Below are positions 37,548-48,153 of a stretch of DNA of 64,000 nt, piece after piece. Position 1 is the first letter of the stretch. Each line of letters opens with the position of its first letter. A program made the position numbers and the translations under genes. The DNA lies in contig NZ_JACBYS010000009.1 in NCBI RefSeq assembly GCF_013408245.1, positions 1 to 64,000 of the forward strand, read 5' to 3'. The notes beneath the pieces were generated by a model that worked only from the letters and a program-made list of their open reading frames with translations, was not told the origin of the DNA and did no database searches. Source of the stretch: Duganella sp. 1224 (GTDB taxonomy: Bacteria; Pseudomonadota; Gammaproteobacteria; Burkholderiales; Burkholderiaceae_D).

Positions 37548-38846
<1,299 letters not shown>

Positions 38847-38855
38847 TCTGAAACA

Positions 38856-38887
38856 ACCGGGGCCGCCAGATAGCGGCCCCGGTGCTT
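38856..38887 (+). terminator. Strong hairpin between mreB and mreC (terminator or attenuator)
   Basis: ACCGGGGCCGC (38856-38866) pairs perfectly with GCGGCCCCGGT (38873-38883) around a 6-nt loop and is followed by GCTTTA. It begins ten bases behind the mreB stop. The T run is short, so partial read-through into mreC is likely. Confidence 0.65.
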
Positions 38888-38941
38888 TACGGTGAGTTGA
38901 TAGTCTCGTTGGCGCGTGGGTGCGCCGGATTATTGGAAGTC

Positions 38942-40234
38942 ATGGAATACAGTCCTCCGCCACTTTTCAAGCAAGGCGCTTCGGCGCGGGTCAAGATGAC
39001 GGTGTTCGCGTGCATATCGATTGCACTGCTGCTGGTCGACTCGCACATGCGCAGTCTTGAACGGGTGCGCTACTATGCCGGCGCGGTGCTGCGGCCGGTG
39101 CAGAAGGTGGCCTTGCTGCCGCGCGACGCCATCTACGGCGTCGGTGAATATTTCTCTACGTTGTCGTCGCTGGAAAAGCAGGTGCGCGAGCTGAAGACGC
39201 AGCAGATCGTCAACTCGCAGGCCTTGCAGCAGGCGAAGCTGCAGTCGGCGGAAAACGCCCAACTGCGCAAGCTGATGGACGCGCGCGAGCGGGTGCCGGT
39301 CAAGTCGCAGCTGGCCGAGGTGCTGTACGACGCGCGCGACGCCAACAGCCGCAAGATCATTCTCGATCGCGGCACCCATCATGATGTGACGCTGGGCCTG
39401 CCGGTGATCGATAACCAGGGCGTGGTCGGCCAGGTCACGCGCGTGTTTCCCTTTACTTCCGAGGTGACGCTGCTGTCCGACAAGGAGCAGGCGATTCCGG
39501 TGCAGCTGCTGCGCAATGGCTTGCGCTCGGTGGCGTATGGGCGTGGCAAGTCGGGCAATCTGGAGTTGCGCTTTACGGCGCCGAACGCGGATATCCAGGT
39601 GGGCGATATCGTGGTGACTTCGGGCCTGGACGGTGTGTATCCGGCCGGCCTGGCGGTGGCCAAGGTGACGCAGGTGGAGAACAGCGCCGGCGGTTCGTTC
39701 GGGGGCGTGATCTGCCAGCCGCTGGCGGGCATCACCAACAATACGCAGCTGCTGATCCTGATGTCGGCGCCGGATATGCCGCCGCGTCCTCCGGATGAGG
39801 TGGAGCGCGCGCCGCGCAAGCACAATAACAAGATGGCGCCGATCAAGGACGCGCCGAAAGAGGGCGAGGGCCAGCCGGCCGCCGGCGCCGCCGGCGCCAC
39901 GCCAGGGCCGAACGGCGCGGCAGGACTGTTCCCGGTCATGCCGCCGCCGCCGAAGCCGGCCGCCGCGCCAGCCGCCGATGGCGCCGCGCCGGCCACCACG
40001 CCAACCAATGCATCGCCGGCCGGCACCACGCCAGGCGCCGCGACGCCGACCAACGCCGCGACCGCGCAAGGCGCCCCGCGCGCCGCCGGCGGCACCGCGG
40101 CCACGACGGCTGGCGCCGCGCCAGGCACGCAAGCCGCGACGCGCACCGCTGGCGGTGCTGCGACGACGTCGCCGGCCGCTGCACGCGCGACCGCGCCGGC
40201 GGCTGTCACTCAATCCAAGGAGCCGGCACGATGA
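38942..40234 (+). CDS. mreC: Rod shape-determining protein MreC
   Basis: A 430-residue bitopic protein. A short cytoplasmic tail (MEYSPPPLFKQGASARVKM), one membrane helix (about 20-36), a coiled coil (about 75-115) and the beta-barrel MreC core (about 120-280, with LPVIDNQGVVGQVTRV and GDIVVTSGLDGVYPAGLAVAKV) are followed by an Ala/Pro/Thr-rich tail of roughly 120 residues not found in E. coli MreC. The core links MreB to PBP2. The start at 38942 fits the family; an upstream frame to 38882 crosses the hairpin and is not favoured. Overlaps mreD by four bases. Confidence 0.95.
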   Translation: MEYSPPPLFKQGASARVKMTVFACISIALLLVDSHMRSLERVRYYAGAVLRPVQKVALLPRDAIYGVGEYFSTLSSLEKQVRELKTQQIVNSQALQQAKLQSAENAQLRKLMDARERVPVKSQLAEVLYDARDANSRKIILDRGTHHDVTLGLPVIDNQGVVGQVTRVFPFTSEVTLLSDKEQAIPVQLLRNGLRSVAYGRGKSGNLELRFTAPNADIQVGDIVVTSGLDGVYPAGLAVAKVTQVENSAGGSFGGVICQPLAGITNNTQLLILMSAPDMPPRPPDEVERAPRKHNNKMAPIKDAPKEGEGQPAAGAAGATPGPNGAAGLFPVMPPPPKPAAAPAADGAAPATTPTNASPAGTTPGAATPTNAATAQGAPRAAGGTAATTAGAAPGTQAATRTAGGAATTSPAAARATAPAAVTQSKEPAR

Positions 40235-40743
40235 ATCGTCCGCACTACATCCTGCTGCCGGTCAGCCCGCTGTTCATCGCCTTTAGCCTGTTCTGCGCCT
40301 TCCTGCTGAACCTTCTGCCATGGGGCCAGTTCGTCGGCGTGCCGGACTTCGTCGCGCTGCTGCTGGTGTTCTGGGGCGTGCACCAACCGCGCAAGGTCGG
40401 CATCGGCACCGCTTTCTTCCTTGGCCTGCTGATGGACGTCCACGACTCCACGCTGCTGGGCGAGAACGCGCTGGCCTACACGCTGCTGTCCTATTTCGCC
40501 ATCATGCTGCACCGCCGGGTGTTGTGGTTCCCGATCTGGACCCAGGCGCTGCACGTGTTCCCGCTGCTGGTGATGGCGCAAACGGTGCAGCTGCTGGTGC
40601 GCTTCTGCGTCTCCGGCAAAACGCCGGGCTGGTTCTACTTCGTTGAAAGCATGATCGCCGTCGTCCTGTGGCCGCTGGTCACGTGGATCCTGCTGGCGCC
40701 CCAGCGCCGCGCGGTCGACCGCGATCACACGCGCCCCATCTGA
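40231..40743 (+). CDS. mreD: Rod shape-determining protein MreD
   Basis: A 170-residue inner-membrane protein with about five helices (LLPVSPLFIAFSLFCAFLLN, FVALLLVFWGVHQP, GIGTAFFLGLLMDVHDSTLLG, and others). The motif FFLGLLMDVHDSTLLGENAL is typical of MreD. Its ATG overlaps the mreC stop (ATGA) and mrdA follows after 15 nt. It completes the MreBCD scaffold. Confidence 0.95.
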   Translation: MNRPHYILLPVSPLFIAFSLFCAFLLNLLPWGQFVGVPDFVALLLVFWGVHQPRKVGIGTAFFLGLLMDVHDSTLLGENALAYTLLSYFAIMLHRRVLWFPIWTQALHVFPLLVMAQTVQLLVRFCVSGKTPGWFYFVESMIAVVLWPLVTWILLAPQRRAVDRDHTRPI

Positions 40744-40758: not shown

Positions 40759-42813
40759 ATGACTGAAATCAAGGACAACCAGCGCGAACTCCAGCAGTTC
40801 CGCCTGCGCCTGACGGTGCTGGGCGGGTTGGTGTTCTTCTGCTTCGCGCTGCTGCTGCTGCGCTTCATCTGGCTGCAAATCGTCAAGTACAGCGACTTCG
40901 CCGTCAAGGCCGAAGAAAACCGCATCGCCATCGTCCCCATTGTCCCCAACCGCGGCCTGATCCTGGACCGCAACGGCGTGGTCCTGGCGCGCAACTACTC
41001 CGCCTTTACGCTGGAGATTACGCCGTCCAAACTGAATGCCACGCTGGACGAAACCATCGACGAGTTGTCCAAGCTGGTCACCGTCGACATCAAGGACCGC
41101 AAGCGCTTCAAGAAACTGCTGGACGAATCGAAGGGCTTCGAGAGCGTGCCGCTGCGCACCCGCCTGACCGACGAGGAAGTCGCGCGCTTCAGCGCCCAGC
41201 GCTTCCGCTTCCCCGGCGTGGAAGTGCAGGCGCGCCTGTTCCGCCAGTACCCGCTGGGCGAAACCGCGTCGCACGTGATCGGCTACATCGGCCGCATCAA
41301 CCAGTCCGAAGTCAAAGCCATCGACGCCACCGACGATGGCCCCAACTACAAGGGCACCGACCATATCGGCAAGGAAGGCCTGGAAAAGAGCTACGAGAAG
41401 CAGCTGCACGGCCAGACCGGCTACGAAGAAGTGGAAGTGTCGGCCGGCGGCCGCGCCATCCGCACGCTGTCGCGCACCCCGGCCACGCCGGGCAATAACC
41501 TGATCCTGTCGATCGACATCGAACTGCAGAAGGTGGTGGAGGAAGCCTTTGGCGAATGGCGCGGCGCCTTCGTTGCGATCGAGCCGGAAACCGGCGACAT
41601 CCTGGCCTACGTCTCGCGTCCCGGCTACGACCCCAACCTGTTCGTCGACGGCATCGATTCGCAAAGCTGGAACGAGCTGAATACCTCGCTCGACCGGCCG
41701 ATGGTCAACCGCCCGCTGTCCGGCACCTACGCGCCGGGTTCCACCTTCAAGCCCTTCATGGCGCTGGCCGCGCTGGAACTGGGCAAGCGCAACCCGGCCA
41801 CCGCGTATCCCGACCCGGGCTTCTTCTACCTCGGCGGCCACAAGTTCCGCGATGATAAAGTGGGCGGCCATGGCAACGTTGACCTGCGCCGCTCCATCAT
41901 CGTGTCCTGCAACACCTACTACTACCAGCTGGGCAACGACATGGGCATCGACGCCATCACCCAGTTCATGAAACCGTTCGGCTTCGGCGAAAAAACCGGC
42001 ATCGACCTGGATAACGAAAAGACCGGCGTGCTGCCATCGAAAGAATGGAAGCGCAAGCGCTTCAAGGGCAATGCCGGCAAGTGGGTGGGCGGCGACACCA
42101 TCTCGGTGTCCAACGGCTCCGGCTACAACTCCTACACGCCGCTGCAGATCGCCCACGCCATGGCCAACCTGGCCAACAACGGCGTGGTGATGAAGCCGCA
42201 CCTGGTGAAGATCGTGGAAGACGGCGGCACCAAGGCGCGCAAGCTCACCGTGCCGAAGGAAAGCTACCGCATCCCGCTCAACCAGACCAACATCGACATC
42301 GTCAAAAGCGCCATGGTGGGCGTGAACAGTGAGCCGGGCGGCACCGCCTACCGCGCCTTCGCCAACGCCGCCTACACCTCCGGCGGCAAGACCGGCACGG
42401 CGCAGGTGGTGGGCATCAAGGCCAACGAGAAGTACAACGCCGCCGCGCTGGCCGAACGCCTGCGCGACAACGCGCTGTACACCGCTTTCGCGCCGGCCGA
42501 CAAGCCGAAGATCGTGGTCGCCATGGTGGTGGAAAATGCCGGCTGGGGCGCGGAGATCGCGGCGCCGATCGCGCGCAAGGCGCTGGACTTCTACCTCTTG
42601 GGCAAACGCCCGGCCGACAAGGAAACCACCAAGGTGCCGAAGGAAGACGCGGCCGAATTCGTGCCGATCGAAGATCCGGAAGCTGCCGAAGCCGCCGCCG
42701 CGGCAGCCGAATCGCGCCGCGAACAGGCGCCGGCGCCAACGCCCGCGCCACCACCAACGCCCGCCGCCACGCCGGCGGCGCAGCCGGTGACGCCGGCACG
42801 GAAGAAACAATAA
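40759..42813 (+). CDS. mrdA: Penicillin-binding protein 2, copy 1
   Basis: A 684-residue class B transpeptidase for cell elongation. One membrane helix (about 21-43), the dimerisation/pedestal region with NRGLILDRNGVVLARNYSA, and the transpeptidase domain: SxxK at Ser328 (STFKPF), SCN in IIVSCNTYYYQLGNDMGID, and KTG in GGKTGTAQV. Beyond the domain is an Ala/Pro-rich tail of about 60 residues (about 625-684). It is one of two very similar mrdA genes in this operon; the second lies behind two rodA genes. rodA copy 1 follows after 13 nt. Confidence 0.96.
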   Translation: MTEIKDNQRELQQFRLRLTVLGGLVFFCFALLLLRFIWLQIVKYSDFAVKAEENRIAIVPIVPNRGLILDRNGVVLARNYSAFTLEITPSKLNATLDETIDELSKLVTVDIKDRKRFKKLLDESKGFESVPLRTRLTDEEVARFSAQRFRFPGVEVQARLFRQYPLGETASHVIGYIGRINQSEVKAIDATDDGPNYKGTDHIGKEGLEKSYEKQLHGQTGYEEVEVSAGGRAIRTLSRTPATPGNNLILSIDIELQKVVEEAFGEWRGAFVAIEPETGDILAYVSRPGYDPNLFVDGIDSQSWNELNTSLDRPMVNRPLSGTYAPGSTFKPFMALAALELGKRNPATAYPDPGFFYLGGHKFRDDKVGGHGNVDLRRSIIVSCNTYYYQLGNDMGIDAITQFMKPFGFGEKTGIDLDNEKTGVLPSKEWKRKRFKGNAGKWVGGDTISVSNGSGYNSYTPLQIAHAMANLANNGVVMKPHLVKIVEDGGTKARKLTVPKESYRIPLNQTNIDIVKSAMVGVNSEPGGTAYRAFANAAYTSGGKTGTAQVVGIKANEKYNAAALAERLRDNALYTAFAPADKPKIVVAMVVENAGWGAEIAAPIARKALDFYLLGKRPADKETTKVPKEDAAEFVPIEDPEAAEAAAAAAESRREQAPAPTPAPPPTPAATPAAQPVTPARKKQ

Positions 42814-42826
42814 GGACCACCTCACC

Positions 42827-43939
42827 ATGCGCATCCACGAGAGACGTTCGCTGTGGCGTCGAATGCGGCCTTACTTCACGGTCTTCGACGGCCCGCTGAC
42901 CCTGATCATCATCATGCTGCTGACCGTCAGCATGATCACGCTGTACTCGGCCAGCATTGGCATTCCCGGCAAGATGGAAGACCAGGTGCGCAACATCTTC
43001 CTGTCGTTCTTCATCATGTGGGTGGTGGCGAACATCTCGCCGCAGATGATGATGCGGATCGCCGTGCCGGCCTACGCCATCGGCGTATTCCTGCTGGTGT
43101 GCGTGGCACTGTTCGGCACCGTCAAGCTGGGGGCGCGGCGCTGGCTGCACGTCGGCATCGACATCCAGCCGTCCGAATTCATGAAGATCGTCATGCCGCT
43201 GATGCTGGCGTGGTTCTTCCAGAGCCGCTCCGGCCACCTGACGTGGCAGTCGTACGCCATTGGCGCGCTGCTGCTGGCGGTGCCGGTGGGCCTGATCGTG
43301 CGCCAGCCCGACCTGGGCACGGCGCTGCTGGTGGTGGCCGCCGGCTTTTGCGTGATTTTTCTGGCGGGCCTGTCGTGGAAGGCGCTGGTTGGATTGTTCG
43401 CGGCCGGCGCGGCGGCGCTGCCGGTGATCTGGTCGGTGCTGCACGACTACCAGCGCGAACGCGTGATGACGCTGATCGATCCGACCACCGACCCCTTGGG
43501 CAAAGGCTTCCACATCATCCAGTCCACCATCGCGGTGGGCTCGGGCGGCATCACCGGCAAGGGCTGGACGCATGGCACGCAGGCCCACCTGGAATTCATC
43601 CCCGAGCGTACCACCGACTTTATTTTCGCCGTCTACTCGGAAGAATTTGGGCTGGTCGGTAACCTGATCCTGATGGTGTTGTACCTGATGCTGATCGGCC
43701 GCGGCCTGATGATCGCCGGGAACGCGCCCAACTTCTTCACCCGCCTGCTGGCCGGCGCCGTCACCATGATTTACTTCACCTATGCTTTCGTCAACATGGG
43801 CATGGTCAGCGGCATCCTGCCGGTGGTGGGCGTGCCCTTGCCGTTCATGAGCTATGGCGGCACCGCGCTGCTGACGCTAGGCCTGGGCGCCGGCATCCTG
43901 ATGAGCATCCAGCGCCACCGCAAGCTGGTGCAGACCTGA
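42827..43939 (+). CDS. rodA: Peptidoglycan glycosyltransferase RodA, copy 1
   Basis: A 370-residue SEDS glycosyltransferase with about ten helices that polymerises lipid II together with PBP2. The SEDS signatures are IQPSEFMKIVMPLMLAWFF, RQPDLGTALLV, FIPERTTDFIFAVYSEEFGL and the closing VGVPLPFMSYGGTALLT. The stop overlaps the next ATG by one base (TGATG), directly joining it to a second rodA. Confidence 0.96.
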   Translation: MRIHERRSLWRRMRPYFTVFDGPLTLIIIMLLTVSMITLYSASIGIPGKMEDQVRNIFLSFFIMWVVANISPQMMMRIAVPAYAIGVFLLVCVALFGTVKLGARRWLHVGIDIQPSEFMKIVMPLMLAWFFQSRSGHLTWQSYAIGALLLAVPVGLIVRQPDLGTALLVVAAGFCVIFLAGLSWKALVGLFAAGAAALPVIWSVLHDYQRERVMTLIDPTTDPLGKGFHIIQSTIAVGSGGITGKGWTHGTQAHLEFIPERTTDFIFAVYSEEFGLVGNLILMVLYLMLIGRGLMIAGNAPNFFTRLLAGAVTMIYFTYAFVNMGMVSGILPVVGVPLPFMSYGGTALLTLGLGAGILMSIQRHRKLVQT

Positions 43940-45063
43940 TGGGCCTTGCGGATAGCCGCACGTGGTGGCAGCGCCTGCGCCCCCACGTGCTGGTGTTTGA
44001 CGCGCCGCTGGCGCTGATCATCGCGGCGTTGCTGTCGGTCGGCCTGGTCACGCTGTACTCGGCAGGCATCGCCATACCCGGCAAGGTGTGGGACCAGTTG
44101 CGCAATATCGCGGCGGCGGTGCTGGTGCTGTGGTTGGTGGCGAACATTCCGCCGCAGATGATGATGCGGCTGGCCGTGCCGGCCTACGTGGTGGGCGTGG
44201 CGCTGCTGGTGGCGGTGGCGCTGTTTGGCATCATCAAGGGCGGTTCGCGCCGCTGGCTGTATGTCGGCACGCAGATCCAGCCTTCCGAATTGATGAAGAT
44301 CGCCATGCCGCTGATGCTGGCCTGGTTTTTCCAGCGCGAGCAGGGGCACGTCAACTGGCGCACCTACATCATCGCCGCCGTGCTGCTGGCGATACCGGCC
44401 GGCCTGATCGCGCGCCAGCCGGACCTGGGCACGGCGATGCTGGTGACCATGGCGGGCGCCTGCGTGATCTTCCTCGGCGGCCTGTCGTGGAAAGCGTTGG
44501 GCGCCTTGTTCGCCGTCGGCGCGGCCGGCCTGCCGGTGCTGTGGACCTTCATGCATGACTACCAGCGCGACCGCGTGTTGACGCTGATCGATCCGTACCA
44601 CGACCCGCTGGGCAAGGGCTTTCACATCATTCAGTCGATGATTGCCATCGGCTCGGGCGGCGTCACCGGCAAGGGCTGGACGCACGGCACGCAGGCGCAC
44701 CTGGAATTCATCCCCGAGCGCACCACCGACTTTATCTTCGCCGTGTTCTCCGAGGAGTTTGGCCTGCTTGGCAACGTGGTGCTGATGGTGCTGTACCTGC
44801 TGCTGATCTGGCGTGGACTGAGCATCACGCTGAACGCGCCGACGCTGTTCACGCGCCTGCTGGCGGGCGCCATCACCATGATTTACTTTACTTACGCCTT
44901 CGTCAACATGGGCATGGTGAGCGGGATCATTCCAGTGGTCGGCGTGCCGCTGCCGTTCATGAGCTACGGCGGCACCGCGCTAATGACGCTCGGCCTGGGC
45001 GGCGGCATCCTGATGAGCATCCAGCGCCACGGCCGGCTGGTGCGCGACGGAGCGCGCGGATGA
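43939..45063 (+). CDS. rodA: Peptidoglycan glycosyltransferase RodA, copy 2
   Basis: A 374-residue SEDS protein nearly collinear with copy 1: IQPSELMKIAMPLMLAWFF, RQPDLGTAMLV, FIPERTTDFIFAVFSEEFGL and VGVPLPFMSYGGTALMT are kept, while helix residues and codons differ throughout, so this is an old, functional duplicate rather than an assembly repeat. All catalytic-region motifs are intact. It overlaps rodA copy 1 by one base and mrdA copy 2 by four (ATGA). Confidence 0.95.
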   Translation: MGLADSRTWWQRLRPHVLVFDAPLALIIAALLSVGLVTLYSAGIAIPGKVWDQLRNIAAAVLVLWLVANIPPQMMMRLAVPAYVVGVALLVAVALFGIIKGGSRRWLYVGTQIQPSELMKIAMPLMLAWFFQREQGHVNWRTYIIAAVLLAIPAGLIARQPDLGTAMLVTMAGACVIFLGGLSWKALGALFAVGAAGLPVLWTFMHDYQRDRVLTLIDPYHDPLGKGFHIIQSMIAIGSGGVTGKGWTHGTQAHLEFIPERTTDFIFAVFSEEFGLLGNVVLMVLYLLLIWRGLSITLNAPTLFTRLLAGAITMIYFTYAFVNMGMVSGIIPVVGVPLPFMSYGGTALMTLGLGGGILMSIQRHGRLVRDGARG

Positions 45064-46979
45064 CGGAGTTCAAGGACAACGACGTCGAAATGCGCGAGTT
45101 CCGCCTGCGCGTGACGGTGCTGGGCGGGCTGGTGTTCCTGTGCTTCTTCCTGCTGCTGGCGCGCTTTGTCTGGCTGCAGATCATCCAGCACGCCGACTTT
45201 GCCGTCAAGGCGGAAGAAAACCGCATCTCGCTGGTGCCTATCGTGCCGAATCGCGGGCTGATTTTGGACCGCAATGGCGTGGTCCTGGCGCGTAACTACT
45301 CGGCCTACACGCTGGAGATCACGCCATCCAGGCTGGAGGCGCCGCTGGATGACACCATCGCCGAGCTGTCCAAGCTGGTGACGGTGGACGTGAAGGACCG
45401 CCGCCGCTTCAAGAAGCTGCTGGAGGAGTCCAAGGGCTTCGAGAGCGTACCGCTGCGCAGCCGTCTCACCGACGAGGAAGTGGCGCGCTTTACGGCGCAG
45501 CACTTCCGCTTCCCCGGCGTGGAAGTGCAGGCGCGCCTGTTCCGCCAGTATCCGCTGGGCGAAACGGCGTCGCACGTCATCGGCTACATCGGCCGCGTGA
45601 GCCGCGCCGAAGCCGACGCGCTGGATGACAGCGATGATGCCGCCAACTATCGCGGCACCGACCATATCGGCAAGGAAGGGCTGGAGAAAAGCTACGAGAA
45701 GCTGCTGCATGGCCAGGCCGGCTTTGAAGAAGTGGAGAAGACTTCCGGCGGCCGTGCCATCCGCACCTTGTCGCGGACGCCGGCCAAGGCGGGCAGCAAC
45801 CTGATACTGTCGATCGACATCGCGCTGCAGAAGATTGTGGAGGAAGCCTTTGGCGACCGCCGCGGCGCGCTGGTGGCGATCGAGCCGGAGACCGGCGACG
45901 TCCTGGCCTACGTCTCGCGCCCCGGCTACGATCCCAATCTTTTCGTCGACGGCATCGACTCGCAAAGCTGGGACGAGCTGAATACATCGCAGGACAAGCC
46001 GCTGCTGAACCGTCCGATCTCCGGCACCTACGCGCCGGGTTCCACCTTCAAGCCTTTCATGGCGCTGGCCGCGCTGGAGCTGGGCAAGCGCACGCCGTCG
46101 CAGGCGATCTACGATCCCGGTTTCTACATGCTGGGCGGCCACCGTTTCAACGACGACGTGCCGGGCGGGCATGGTTCGGTGGACATGCGCAGGTCGATCA
46201 TCGTGTCGTGTAATACCTACTACTACGAGCTGGGTCACGACATGGGCATCAACGCCATTCACGACTTCATGCAGCCGTTCGGCTTTGGCGAGAAGACCGG
46301 CATCGATCTTGAAAACGAAAAGACCGGCGCGTTGCCGTCGCCGGAGTGGAAGGCGAAGCGCTTCAAGGGTGCGGCGGGGCGCTGGGTCGGTGGTGATACT
46401 ATCTCGGTCAGCAATGGTTCCGGCCTCAATGCCTACACCCCTTTGCAGATTGCTCACGCCGTGGCCAATCTGGCAAATAACGGCGTGGTGATGAAGCCGC
46501 ACCTGGTGAAGATCGTTGAGGACAGCGCCACGCACGCGCGCAAGCTGACGGTGGCGCAGCAAAGCTATCGGATTCCGCTCAAGCAGGAGAACATCGACTT
46601 TATCAAGAATGCGATGGTGGGCGTGACCAGCGAGCCGGGTGGCACGGCCTACCGCGTGTTTGCCAACGCCGGCTACACGGTGGGCGGCAAGACCGGCACC
46701 GCGCAGGTCATCACGATTAAAAAAGGCGAGAAATACAACGCCGCCCGACTGGCCGAGCGCCTGCGCGACAATGCGCTGTTCACCGCGTTTGCGCCGGTGG
46801 ACAAGCCGCGCATCGTGCTGGCCATGGTGGTGGAAAACGCCGGCCATGGCGGCGAGGCCGCGGCGCCGATTGCGCGCAAGGCTTTGGATTATTACCTGCT
46901 GGGCAAGCGTCCGGCGGAGAAGGACAAGAACAAAGTGGAACAAGAAAACACGGAGAGCGGCGATGCGCCTGCAACGTAA
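45060..46979 (+). CDS. mrdA: Penicillin-binding protein 2, copy 2
   Basis: A 639-residue class B PBP collinear with copy 1: Ser328 SxxK (STFKPF), IIVSCNTYYYELGHDMGIN and GGKTGTAQV are all present, as is NRGLILDRNGVVLARNYSA. It lacks the long Ala/Pro-rich tail of copy 1 and ends KVEQENTESGDAPAT. It overlaps rodA copy 2 upstream (ATGA) and rlpA downstream (17 nt), so this copy is translationally tied to both. Likely an active transpeptidase with a specialised condition or partner; which one is unknown. Confidence 0.95.
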   Translation: MTEFKDNDVEMREFRLRVTVLGGLVFLCFFLLLARFVWLQIIQHADFAVKAEENRISLVPIVPNRGLILDRNGVVLARNYSAYTLEITPSRLEAPLDDTIAELSKLVTVDVKDRRRFKKLLEESKGFESVPLRSRLTDEEVARFTAQHFRFPGVEVQARLFRQYPLGETASHVIGYIGRVSRAEADALDDSDDAANYRGTDHIGKEGLEKSYEKLLHGQAGFEEVEKTSGGRAIRTLSRTPAKAGSNLILSIDIALQKIVEEAFGDRRGALVAIEPETGDVLAYVSRPGYDPNLFVDGIDSQSWDELNTSQDKPLLNRPISGTYAPGSTFKPFMALAALELGKRTPSQAIYDPGFYMLGGHRFNDDVPGGHGSVDMRRSIIVSCNTYYYELGHDMGINAIHDFMQPFGFGEKTGIDLENEKTGALPSPEWKAKRFKGAAGRWVGGDTISVSNGSGLNAYTPLQIAHAVANLANNGVVMKPHLVKIVEDSATHARKLTVAQQSYRIPLKQENIDFIKNAMVGVTSEPGGTAYRVFANAGYTVGGKTGTAQVITIKKGEKYNAARLAERLRDNALFTAFAPVDKPRIVLAMVVENAGHGGEAAAPIARKALDYYLLGKRPAEKDKNKVEQENTESGDAPAT

Positions 46980-48153
46980 TCGTCTGCTGCAGTTGACGGC
47001 GATGGCGTCGGCGCTGGTGCTGGTCGGTTGCGGCACGGCGCCGGTGTCGACCGAGCGCGCACCGCGCCCGGTGCAGTCGACCGGGCCGGTGATCAAGGCG
47101 CCATCCACCACCAAGCCGGATCCGTCGCTGCCGGTGCTGCCGCCGGCGAATTCGGGACGTGGCGGTTATTATCAGGATGATGGTCCGGGCGATTCGCCGC
47201 CGCCGAATCTGATGGACACGCCGGACGCCGACGTGCGCAATGATCCGCTGCTGCCGCGCTCCAACCGGCCTTACGTCGTCTTCGGCAAAACCTATACGCC
47301 AATCACGGACGACCAGCCGTTTACGCAGATCGGCGTGGGTAGCTGGTACGGCAAGAAGTTTCACGGTCAGCGTACTTCGTCGGGTGAGCTGTACGATATG
47401 TACAAGATGACGGCCGCGCATCCGATTCTGCCGATTCCCTCGTACGCGCGGCTGACCAATATGGTGAGCGGCGCCACGGTCATCGTGCGCATTAACGATC
47501 GCGGGCCGTTCCATGCCAACCGCGCCATCGACGTGTCGTACACGGCGGCGCTGAAACTGGGCTTGCTGGGCAAGGGCAGTCATGAGCTGAAGATCGAGCG
47601 CATCCTGCCCGAGGAGGTGGACCGCATCCTGGCGTCGCGCGAGGGCCTGCAGGGCACCAAGCCGCGCCTGACGCCGCCGATCAAGACGCCGCTGCCGTCC
47701 GCCCAGCCGGGCGAGCAGGCGGCGCCGGTGCCCAAGGTGACGGCAAAGATGATCGATACGCCGCTGGTGCTGACGCCGGCGGCGCCGGCCGCCACGCCTG
47801 CCGTCGCTGGTGCCGGCGCCAGCGCCAGCACGGCGGCGGCGGCCGCGTCGGTCGCCGCGCCGAAGGAGATCGAATCGCTGATGCTGACCGACCGCGCGCC
47901 AGCCGGCTACGCCGCGCCGGATACGCCGGCGGCGGGTGGCTTCTATCTGCAACTGGGCGCTTACTCGCGCGCGGAAAACGCCGAGGCGGTGCGCGGCAAG
48001 CTGTCTGGCAAACTGAATGGTCTGGAGGTCGTGCAGGGCGGCGCCGTGTACCGGCTGTTCGGCGGCCCGTTCGCCACGCGCCAGGAAGCGCAGCAGGCGG
48101 CACAAGGGCTACCGTCGTCGCTGGGCCTCAAGCCCATCATCGTGCAGCGCTGA
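46963..48153 (+). CDS. rlpA: Septal ring lytic transglycosylase RlpA family lipoprotein
   Basis: A 396-residue lipoprotein. Lipobox LVLVGC (Cys about 24) follows the signal peptide; the double-psi beta-barrel is at about 120-215 (GVGSWYGKKFHGQRTSSGE, VIVRINDRGPFHANRAIDVS), then an Ala/Pro-rich linker and a C-terminal SPOR domain (GGFYLQLGAYSRAENAEAVR to the end) that binds denuded glycan at septa. RlpA cleaves peptide-free glycan strands in some species. The ATG at 46963 lies within the end of mrdA copy 2. It closes the operon and converges directly, with no gap, with the next gene. Confidence 0.93.
   Translation: MRLQRNRLLQLTAMASALVLVGCGTAPVSTERAPRPVQSTGPVIKAPSTTKPDPSLPVLPPANSGRGGYYQDDGPGDSPPPNLMDTPDADVRNDPLLPRSNRPYVVFGKTYTPITDDQPFTQIGVGSWYGKKFHGQRTSSGELYDMYKMTAAHPILPIPSYARLTNMVSGATVIVRINDRGPFHANRAIDVSYTAALKLGLLGKGSHELKIERILPEEVDRILASREGLQGTKPRLTPPIKTPLPSAQPGEQAAPVPKVTAKMIDTPLVLTPAAPAATPAVAGAGASASTAAAAASVAAPKEIESLMLTDRAPAGYAAPDTPAAGGFYLQLGAYSRAENAEAVRGKLSGKLNGLEVVQGGAVYRLFGGPFATRQEAQQAAQGLPSSLGLKPIIVQR

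Follow-up and report, generated by a model that had tools for sequence, protein, structure and literature searches.

How does an operon come to hold two copies of each of two partner enzymes in mirror order, and do these copies form two closed pairs or do they serve one machine? RodA and penicillin-binding protein 2 (PBP2, the product of mrdA) together synthesise the lateral wall in rod-shaped bacteria, and to our knowledge they normally occur as a single pair. In a stretch of 64,000 nucleotides from Duganella sp. 1224 (contig NZ_JACBYS010000009.1; this whole stretch is called "the window" below), four genes instead follow each other on the + strand at 40759-46979 in the order mrdA1-rodA1-rodA2-mrdA2, with mreBCD upstream and rlpA downstream. 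Comparison with related genomes leads us to consider it probable that a tandem mrdA-rodA array has decayed to leave this locus, whose genes would now be exchangeable synthase copies of one elongasome.

Both PBP2 exceed the equivalog cut-off of the NCBIfam model TIGR03423 (PBP2/MrdA, 455 bits), mrdA1 (40759..42813; PBP2-1, 684 amino acids) with 774.5 bits and mrdA2 (45060..46979; PBP2-2, 639 amino acids) with 763.8 bits, and both RodA exceed that of TIGR02210 (RodA/MrdB, 336.7 bits), rodA1 (42827..43939, 370 amino acids) with 412.3 bits and rodA2 (43939..45063, 374 amino acids) with 405.3 bits. APGSTFK, SCN and KTG are found in both PBP2 (the SxxK, SxN/D and KTG motifs are thus satisfied), and the catalytic PERTTDF in both RodA, the Asp of RodA1 being aligned with D262 of E. 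coli RodA (8TJ3 chain B). The order PBP2-RodA-RodA-PBP2 on one strand with intact catalytic motifs, as the first-pass annotation of this DNA had described it, is therefore borne out by open reading frames (ORFs), equivalog scores and motifs. Genome-wide, two TIGR02210 and two TIGR03423 matches were obtained at E <= 1e-80, with no additional RodA or PBP2 equivalog match elsewhere at that threshold; other SEDS matches (one strong, on another contig, and one weak) and further penicillin-binding proteins (PBPs) lie elsewhere in the genome. The two PBP2 share 79.5% of their residues and 80.2% of their nucleotides (synonymous divergence dS, estimated by NG86, 0.59), the two RodA 73.0% and 78.1% (dS 0.51), and the third codon positions of the copies are 67-68% identical. 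This divergence, together with the recurrence of the same order in 19 other genomes, rejects an assembly duplicate and confirms what had been said earlier from divergence alone.

The locus was examined in 74 genomes of the genus (Duganella in the broad sense, the window's genome included), and four architectures were observed (M for mrdA, R for rodA): MRRM in 20 genomes, MRM in 11 (among them G180, which retains a relic of rodA2, and G194, whose locus is split over two contigs), MRR in 5 and MR in 38 (including G149, on two contigs, and G154, in which mrdA was not found and rodA lies on a contig of 3,740 bases). MRRM is present in 20 of the 36 genomes of the core clade, with all three subclades represented, and one core genome (G176) lacks both second copies. 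Over the best aligned stretch, identity to genomes of the genus is 100% for loci named Duganella flavida, Pseudoduganella violaceinigra, Pseudoduganella lurida and Duganella sp. Root336D2. Among 23 loci from other genera, 22 are MR and one has R alone within the stretch fetched. On a larger scale, 236 of 250 genomes sampled across the order have a RodA and a single one has two at E <= 1e-98, namely the window's genome, which was the sole member of its genus in this sample. In a sample of 145 genomes of the family, a second RodA above the cut-off is confined to the window's genus (8 genomes of it drawn), and in five genomes from other genera the second match stays under the cut-off. We found no description of this locus in the titles and abstract openings of the papers listed; the consulted part of a report on Ramlibacter names single rodA and mrdA genes (PMC3164672).

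The origin of the mirror order is best approached through relics. In three MRRM genomes (G089, G196 and G197; loci L162, L152 and L153), 216-222 bp encoding the first ~60 residues of PBP2 (tblastn E to 1e-16) lie between rodA1 and rodA2, at the site where the window has a mere TGATG stop/start overlap (43937..43941), and in one MRM genome (G187, locus L139) a like N-terminal remnant lies between rodA1 and mrdA2 (tblastn E to 2e-9). The relics cover PBP2 residues ~10-60; the stub ORFs are open (70, 70, 68 and 74 codons in G089, G196, G197 and G187, respectively) and all start within the TGATG of rodA1. In the stubs of both lineages the PBP2 match stops near the same residue (57-60), which argues for one common in-frame deletion. 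In G187, the stub is followed by a 23-codon piece ending in ATGA, as rodA2 does elsewhere, and by eye this end lets us read the piece as a relic of rodA2. The presence of mrdA relics after rodA1 points to an ancestral order M-R-M'-R-M, i.e. a tandem pair with its middle mrdA cut down. The mrdA relics (three between rodA1 and rodA2, one before a rodA2 relic), together with in-frame rodA2 relics in three genomes, thus support the idea, already put forward in the first-pass annotation, of repeated duplication with selective loss.

Several losses kept the reading frame. In-frame rodA2 relics of 116, 17 and 23 codons are found in G180, G209 and G187, and in G191 the mrdA stub is further reduced to 11 codons, again in frame (the pieces in G209, G187 and G191 were identified by eye from their ends). 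With the shared stub itself, this makes five such deletions, and the chance that all five are in frame is about 0.004 if each has a probability of 1/3, a value that is biased, since readable relics drew attention. On the flank-gene tree of 56 loci, the distribution of rodA2 needs 7 changes and that of mrdA2 needs 3; if rodA2 was gained once, parsimony implies that it was lost six times, and mrdA2 once or twice. Two papers (PMC6728339, PMC10666635) deal with the ability of ATGA and TGATG overlaps, such as those at these junctions, to couple translation.

The scenario that we favour would then run as follows. An mrdA-rodA tandem array (M-R-M'-R-M) would have arisen in the ancestor of a Duganella subclade, and its middle mrdA would have been shortened to a stub by an in-frame deletion, the order of these events being the one that we infer. 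The window's branch would then have dropped the stub and joined rodA1 to rodA2 via TGATG, giving M-R-R-M. The four remaining genes, judged by constraint and by their intact motifs, would be working enzymes that supply one MreBCD-based elongasome as exchangeable partners. Any specialisation would reside in the transpeptidase domain and in how each copy is expressed, and not in two closed cognate pairs. Single second copies are dispensable, several of them having been removed by internal deletions sparing the frame and the coupling to the next gene. A possible sign of continuing local duplication was seen by eye at locus L113 (G172), where the end of rodA1 (~36 bp) is tandemly repeated before rodA2.

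The trees of the two families bear on this scenario in different ways. The second RodA copies form one clade (25 rows), which is recovered with support 100/100 for 19 rows in a careful tree of 78 rows chosen from 144 (omitted were the orphan copies, ten genomes that nearly duplicate others, and some of the rows from the sister clade and the outgroups). The approximately unbiased (AU) test does not reject a grouping of rodA2 with Duganella-subclade RodA1 (p 0.33), nor do the trees show one. No outside donor of RodA2 appeared among the matches listed for 392 Oxalobacteraceae genomes (373 of them with a match at E <= 1e-125): among these, identity reaches 73% for the top-scoring matches beyond the genus, versus 78% for sister Duganella RodA1.

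The second PBP2 copies also form one clade (31 rows; 12 rows in the trees of each half of the protein), and this clade is nested in the genus. A further PBP2 analysis, which bears on the mosaic described next, used 110 of 126 rows (the long mrdA2 of G187 and four long rows from outgroups were dropped, and 19 of the 30 single-copy sister-clade rows were kept), and the trees made half by half used 54 of 126. Over codons 1-330, the core-clade M1 and M2 copies (products of mrdA1 and mrdA2) form one clade (97/92), whereas over codons 331-625 holding them together is rejected (AU p 2.5e-14). Read from these trees, PBP2-1 across the genus is a mosaic, the history of its transpeptidase half differing from that of its N-terminal half. 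One form of this half, which we call alpha and which carries PPGSTFK/SCD, is found in 22 genomes (22/22 M1-alpha); the window's subclade (18 genomes) has another transpeptidase half, with APGSTFK/SCN like mrdA2, this pair of motifs being present in all 31 M2. Codons 321-420 of mrdA1 in the window's subclade (41719..42018, + strand, in the transpeptidase domain) are unlike every other PBP2 group compared, the segment-by-segment identity table giving mean identities of 0.72-0.80 to genus and Janthinobacterium groups and of 0.67-0.70 to outgroups. The identity of the alpha half reaches 82% with most genomes of a group corresponding to Janthinobacterium (g6; three of four named loci have 91-96% nucleotide identity to G123, the fourth 87%) and 88% with one metagenome-assembled genome (MAG) of that group, versus 77-78% with the closest copies of non-alpha type in its own genus. 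Placing it inside the genus clade is not rejected (AU p 0.297). To us, import of the alpha half from outside is likely, with a donor near Janthinobacterium suggested by these identities. The MAG in question (G388:C675) is coded to the Janthinobacterium genus, and may represent either a donor lineage or a misplaced MAG. A recent foreign origin of one copy, which the first-pass annotation had named as a possible objection, finds no support for RodA2, for which no outside donor appeared among the matches listed, but the PBP2-1 transpeptidase half does have a separate history in the genus.

Are the copies, then, two cognate and condition-specific synthases, (PBP2-1, RodA1) and (PBP2-2, RodA2)? This idea has attractions: rodA2 and mrdA2 are coupled by an ATGA overlap (45060..45063 in the window) in 20/20 MRRM genomes, both second copies are single clades with a similar distribution, and the consulted part of the work on Salmonella PBP2SAL offers a precedent (PMC10492807), although the Salmonella complexes described there share RodA. 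We nevertheless find it unlikely. Eleven genomes have mrdA2 without an intact rodA2 and five have rodA2 without mrdA2, and the survivor is constrained in the 8 pairs compared: the ratio of nonsynonymous to synonymous divergence (dN/dS) is 0.07-0.12 for mrdA2 in genomes without rodA2 (4 pairs; G209 and G180 lost rodA2 separately) and 0.05-0.17 for rodA2 in genomes without mrdA2 (4 pairs, three of them sharing G205). Since the survivor stays constrained after the loss of its partner, neither second copy needs the other. Of 12 fixed differences between RodA1 and RodA2, one (N302T) falls within residues 260-370, the C-terminal third, which should carry transmembrane (TM) helices 8-10 according to the placement that we infer. 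It is on TM8 and TM9 of RodA that the TM helix of PBP2 packs in the E. coli complex, in the available part of PMC10449877. Obligate cognate pairing is thus disfavoured; the earlier suggestion that each PBP2 is the cognate of one RodA is, as an obligate state, unsupported by the independent losses and by the single fixed C-terminal difference in RodA, though a preference may exist.

Other explanations fare variously. The extra copies could be a nonadaptive leftover, raising dosage only and now being lost without any division of labour; the loss of rodA2 on some six occasions, that of mrdA2 on one or two and the absence of both from G176 go in this direction, so that we give the idea some credence while doubting it. 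It sits poorly with the constraint on the second copies, whose dN/dS is 0.03-0.18 in all 20 comparisons involving them (the 16 genome pairs were picked by the author; for the four genes, the values are 0.07-0.10 between the window and G157 and 0.07-0.15 between the window and G192), and with the retention of MRRM in all three core subclades. Mosaic or acquired PBPs serve elsewhere as beta-lactam-insensitive spares, and one transpeptidase domain might likewise be a spare giving tolerance to a beta-lactam that binds PBP2. The separate history of the PBP2-1 transpeptidase half and the different active-site context of M1-alpha and M2 would fit such a role; yet in the window APGSTFK/SCN is found in both copies, and PP before the motif is commoner in outgroups (at least 18 of 21) and occurs in E. 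coli (PPASTVK/SAD), so that we see no resistance signature and hold this role to be quite improbable. Most improbable of all, in our opinion, is that the second pair was acquired horizontally from a source beyond the genus: RodA2 does branch outside the genus RodA1 in the best trees and the alpha half of M1 does resemble Janthinobacterium sequences, but the RodA identities listed above favour sister Duganella, an origin of RodA2 with Duganella-subclade RodA1 is not rejected, and mrdA2 is nested inside the genus.

Returning to the decayed tandem array with exchangeable copies, a number of observations weigh against it and should be acknowledged. The placement of the rodA2 clade outside all genus RodA1 has some support (98/75), and the RodA1 tree departs from the flank-gene trees. 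When the N-terminal half of PBP2 is taken by itself, M2 groups only with M1 from the window's subclade (sister clades, 100/94), the other M1 lying outside, and a Massilia-like outgroup is placed close to the core clade (93/88); this topology suggests that copies have exchanged sequence or that the signal is weak, and it makes the duplication harder to date. A third, last rodA was searched for after mrdA2 and no convincing match was obtained, so that a full M-R-M-R-M-R ancestor is not supported. No in-frame relic was found at the losses in G040, G156 (for a five-genome clade), G169 and G204, and parsimony counts alone cannot separate gain from loss, a distinction that comes from the relics and the single clades. 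As to exchangeability, the conserved ATGA overlap fits a cognate unit as well, and unfixed contact differences between RodA1 and RodA2 are possible, 17-21% of the sites in residues 260-370 differing between the two RodA of one genome.

The mrdA stub deserves consideration in its own right. RodA fused to the PBP2 TM helix only (the PBP2 part ending at residue 47) is stimulated in polymerisation, according to the consulted part of PMC10449877, and the natural stub spans the PBP2 region of this engineered fusion. One could imagine, as a long shot, that in G187 and in the three stub-carrying genomes from another subclade the stub is translated, in coupling with rodA1, into a TM-only PBP2 microprotein, which would bind TM8-9 of RodA and activate the glycan polymerase without a transpeptidase, creating a beta-lactam-independent state of RodA that the window's clade would later have dropped. 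Alternatively, the stub may be only a spacer maintaining translational coupling. When the three related stubs are compared, third positions account for 13 of 23 variable sites (one-sided binomial p 0.019; three sequences, hand alignment with one 6-base gap), and their dN/dS of ~0.25-0.28 indicates weaker constraint than on rodA1 (0.05-0.09 for the same pairs); over the distance to G187 (dN 0.48-0.49, dS 0.76-1.06) the constraint is weaker still.

The Ala/Pro-rich C-terminal tail that had been noted as an extra feature of copy 1 is real, but it is no novelty of that copy: a tail of ~60-190 amino acids is present in 29 of 30 single-copy sister-clade genomes (the remaining one was not measured), whereas the short form belongs to copy 2 in the window's subclade (a tail in the 20s of amino acids in 11 of 12). 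Counted from GKRP, where the transpeptidase ends, PBP2 tails range overall from ~10 to 190 amino acids; they are longest in the single-copy genomes of the sister clade, and Ala/Pro-rich where inspected.

The neighbouring ORFs, all on the + strand, comprise what we take to be mreB (37803..38846; 90-100% identical to the matching gene in those stretches of relatives that hold one), mreC (38882..40234, start uncertain; between mreB and mreD in most relatives) and mreD (40231..40743; preceding mrdA1 in most relatives' stretches). Downstream lies a gene presumed, as in the first-pass annotation, to be rlpA (46963..48153); in most relatives' stretches it comes after the final mrd gene. Its start is assumed to be the ATG inside the end of mrdA2, in which case the two genes overlap by 17 bp; with the ATGA overlap, this agrees with the earlier statement that the second PBP2 gene is tied to both rodA2 and rlpA.

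In 21 genomes of the genus there are also RodA-like genes of an orphan type, 22 in all, which form one separate clade and share 54-69% identity with the window's RodA (loci L079, L083, L086, L088, L093, L095, L098, L102, L104, L105, L108, L117, L123, L125, L131, L133, L135, L137, L143, L147, L151 and L164). No mreBCD or mrdA match was found near them in the stretch fetched, and rodA2 is absent from all 21 genomes. In L093 and L104 the orphan is preceded by a universal-stress-like gene and a PHA-synthase-like gene (names given by eye), and in L125 (G144) it is N-terminally short (an ORF of 219 amino acids, profile positions 140-356) and perhaps decaying.

Mosaic penicillin-binding proteins, such as the penA mosaics, are a known phenomenon, and mrdA1 resembles them in that its N-terminal and transpeptidase halves differ in history across the genus; for the Duganella mosaic, however, a link to resistance would be speculative, and a donor near Janthinobacterium is at most suggested. 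Each copy at the locus is a full RodA or PBP2 of the E. coli-type Rod-complex core (8TJ3; Thermus 6PL5) by equivalog model and motif, the copy 1 sequences matching 8TJ3, but the locus has two of each. As far as the consulted part of PMC10492807 goes, Salmonella has two PBP2 (PBP2 and PBP2SAL) that direct separate, differentially regulated elongasomes sharing RodA. The likeness lies in a second intact elongation PBP2 (63% identity there, 79.5% in Duganella), whereas in Duganella RodA is duplicated as well, in the same operon. Finally, the natural stub of the four relatives encodes the cytoplasmic tail, the TM helix and some further residues, and thus recalls the engineered RodA-PBP2 fusion (residue 47, in the available part of PMC10449877), the stub being however a separate ORF, and absent from the window.

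What the locus teaches about operons is that gene loss proceeds, in several cases, by in-frame deletions that spare translational coupling. For the elongasome, the genus Duganella spans, as a natural series, loci with one pair, loci with M-R-M'-R-M relics and several partial losses, which lets the exchange of partners between RodA and PBP2 be tested in close relatives. It can be asked in this series which RodA each PBP2 drives, whether the transpeptidase domain tolerates a swap with the RodA-binding half kept, and whether a PBP2 membrane helix can act alone in vivo.

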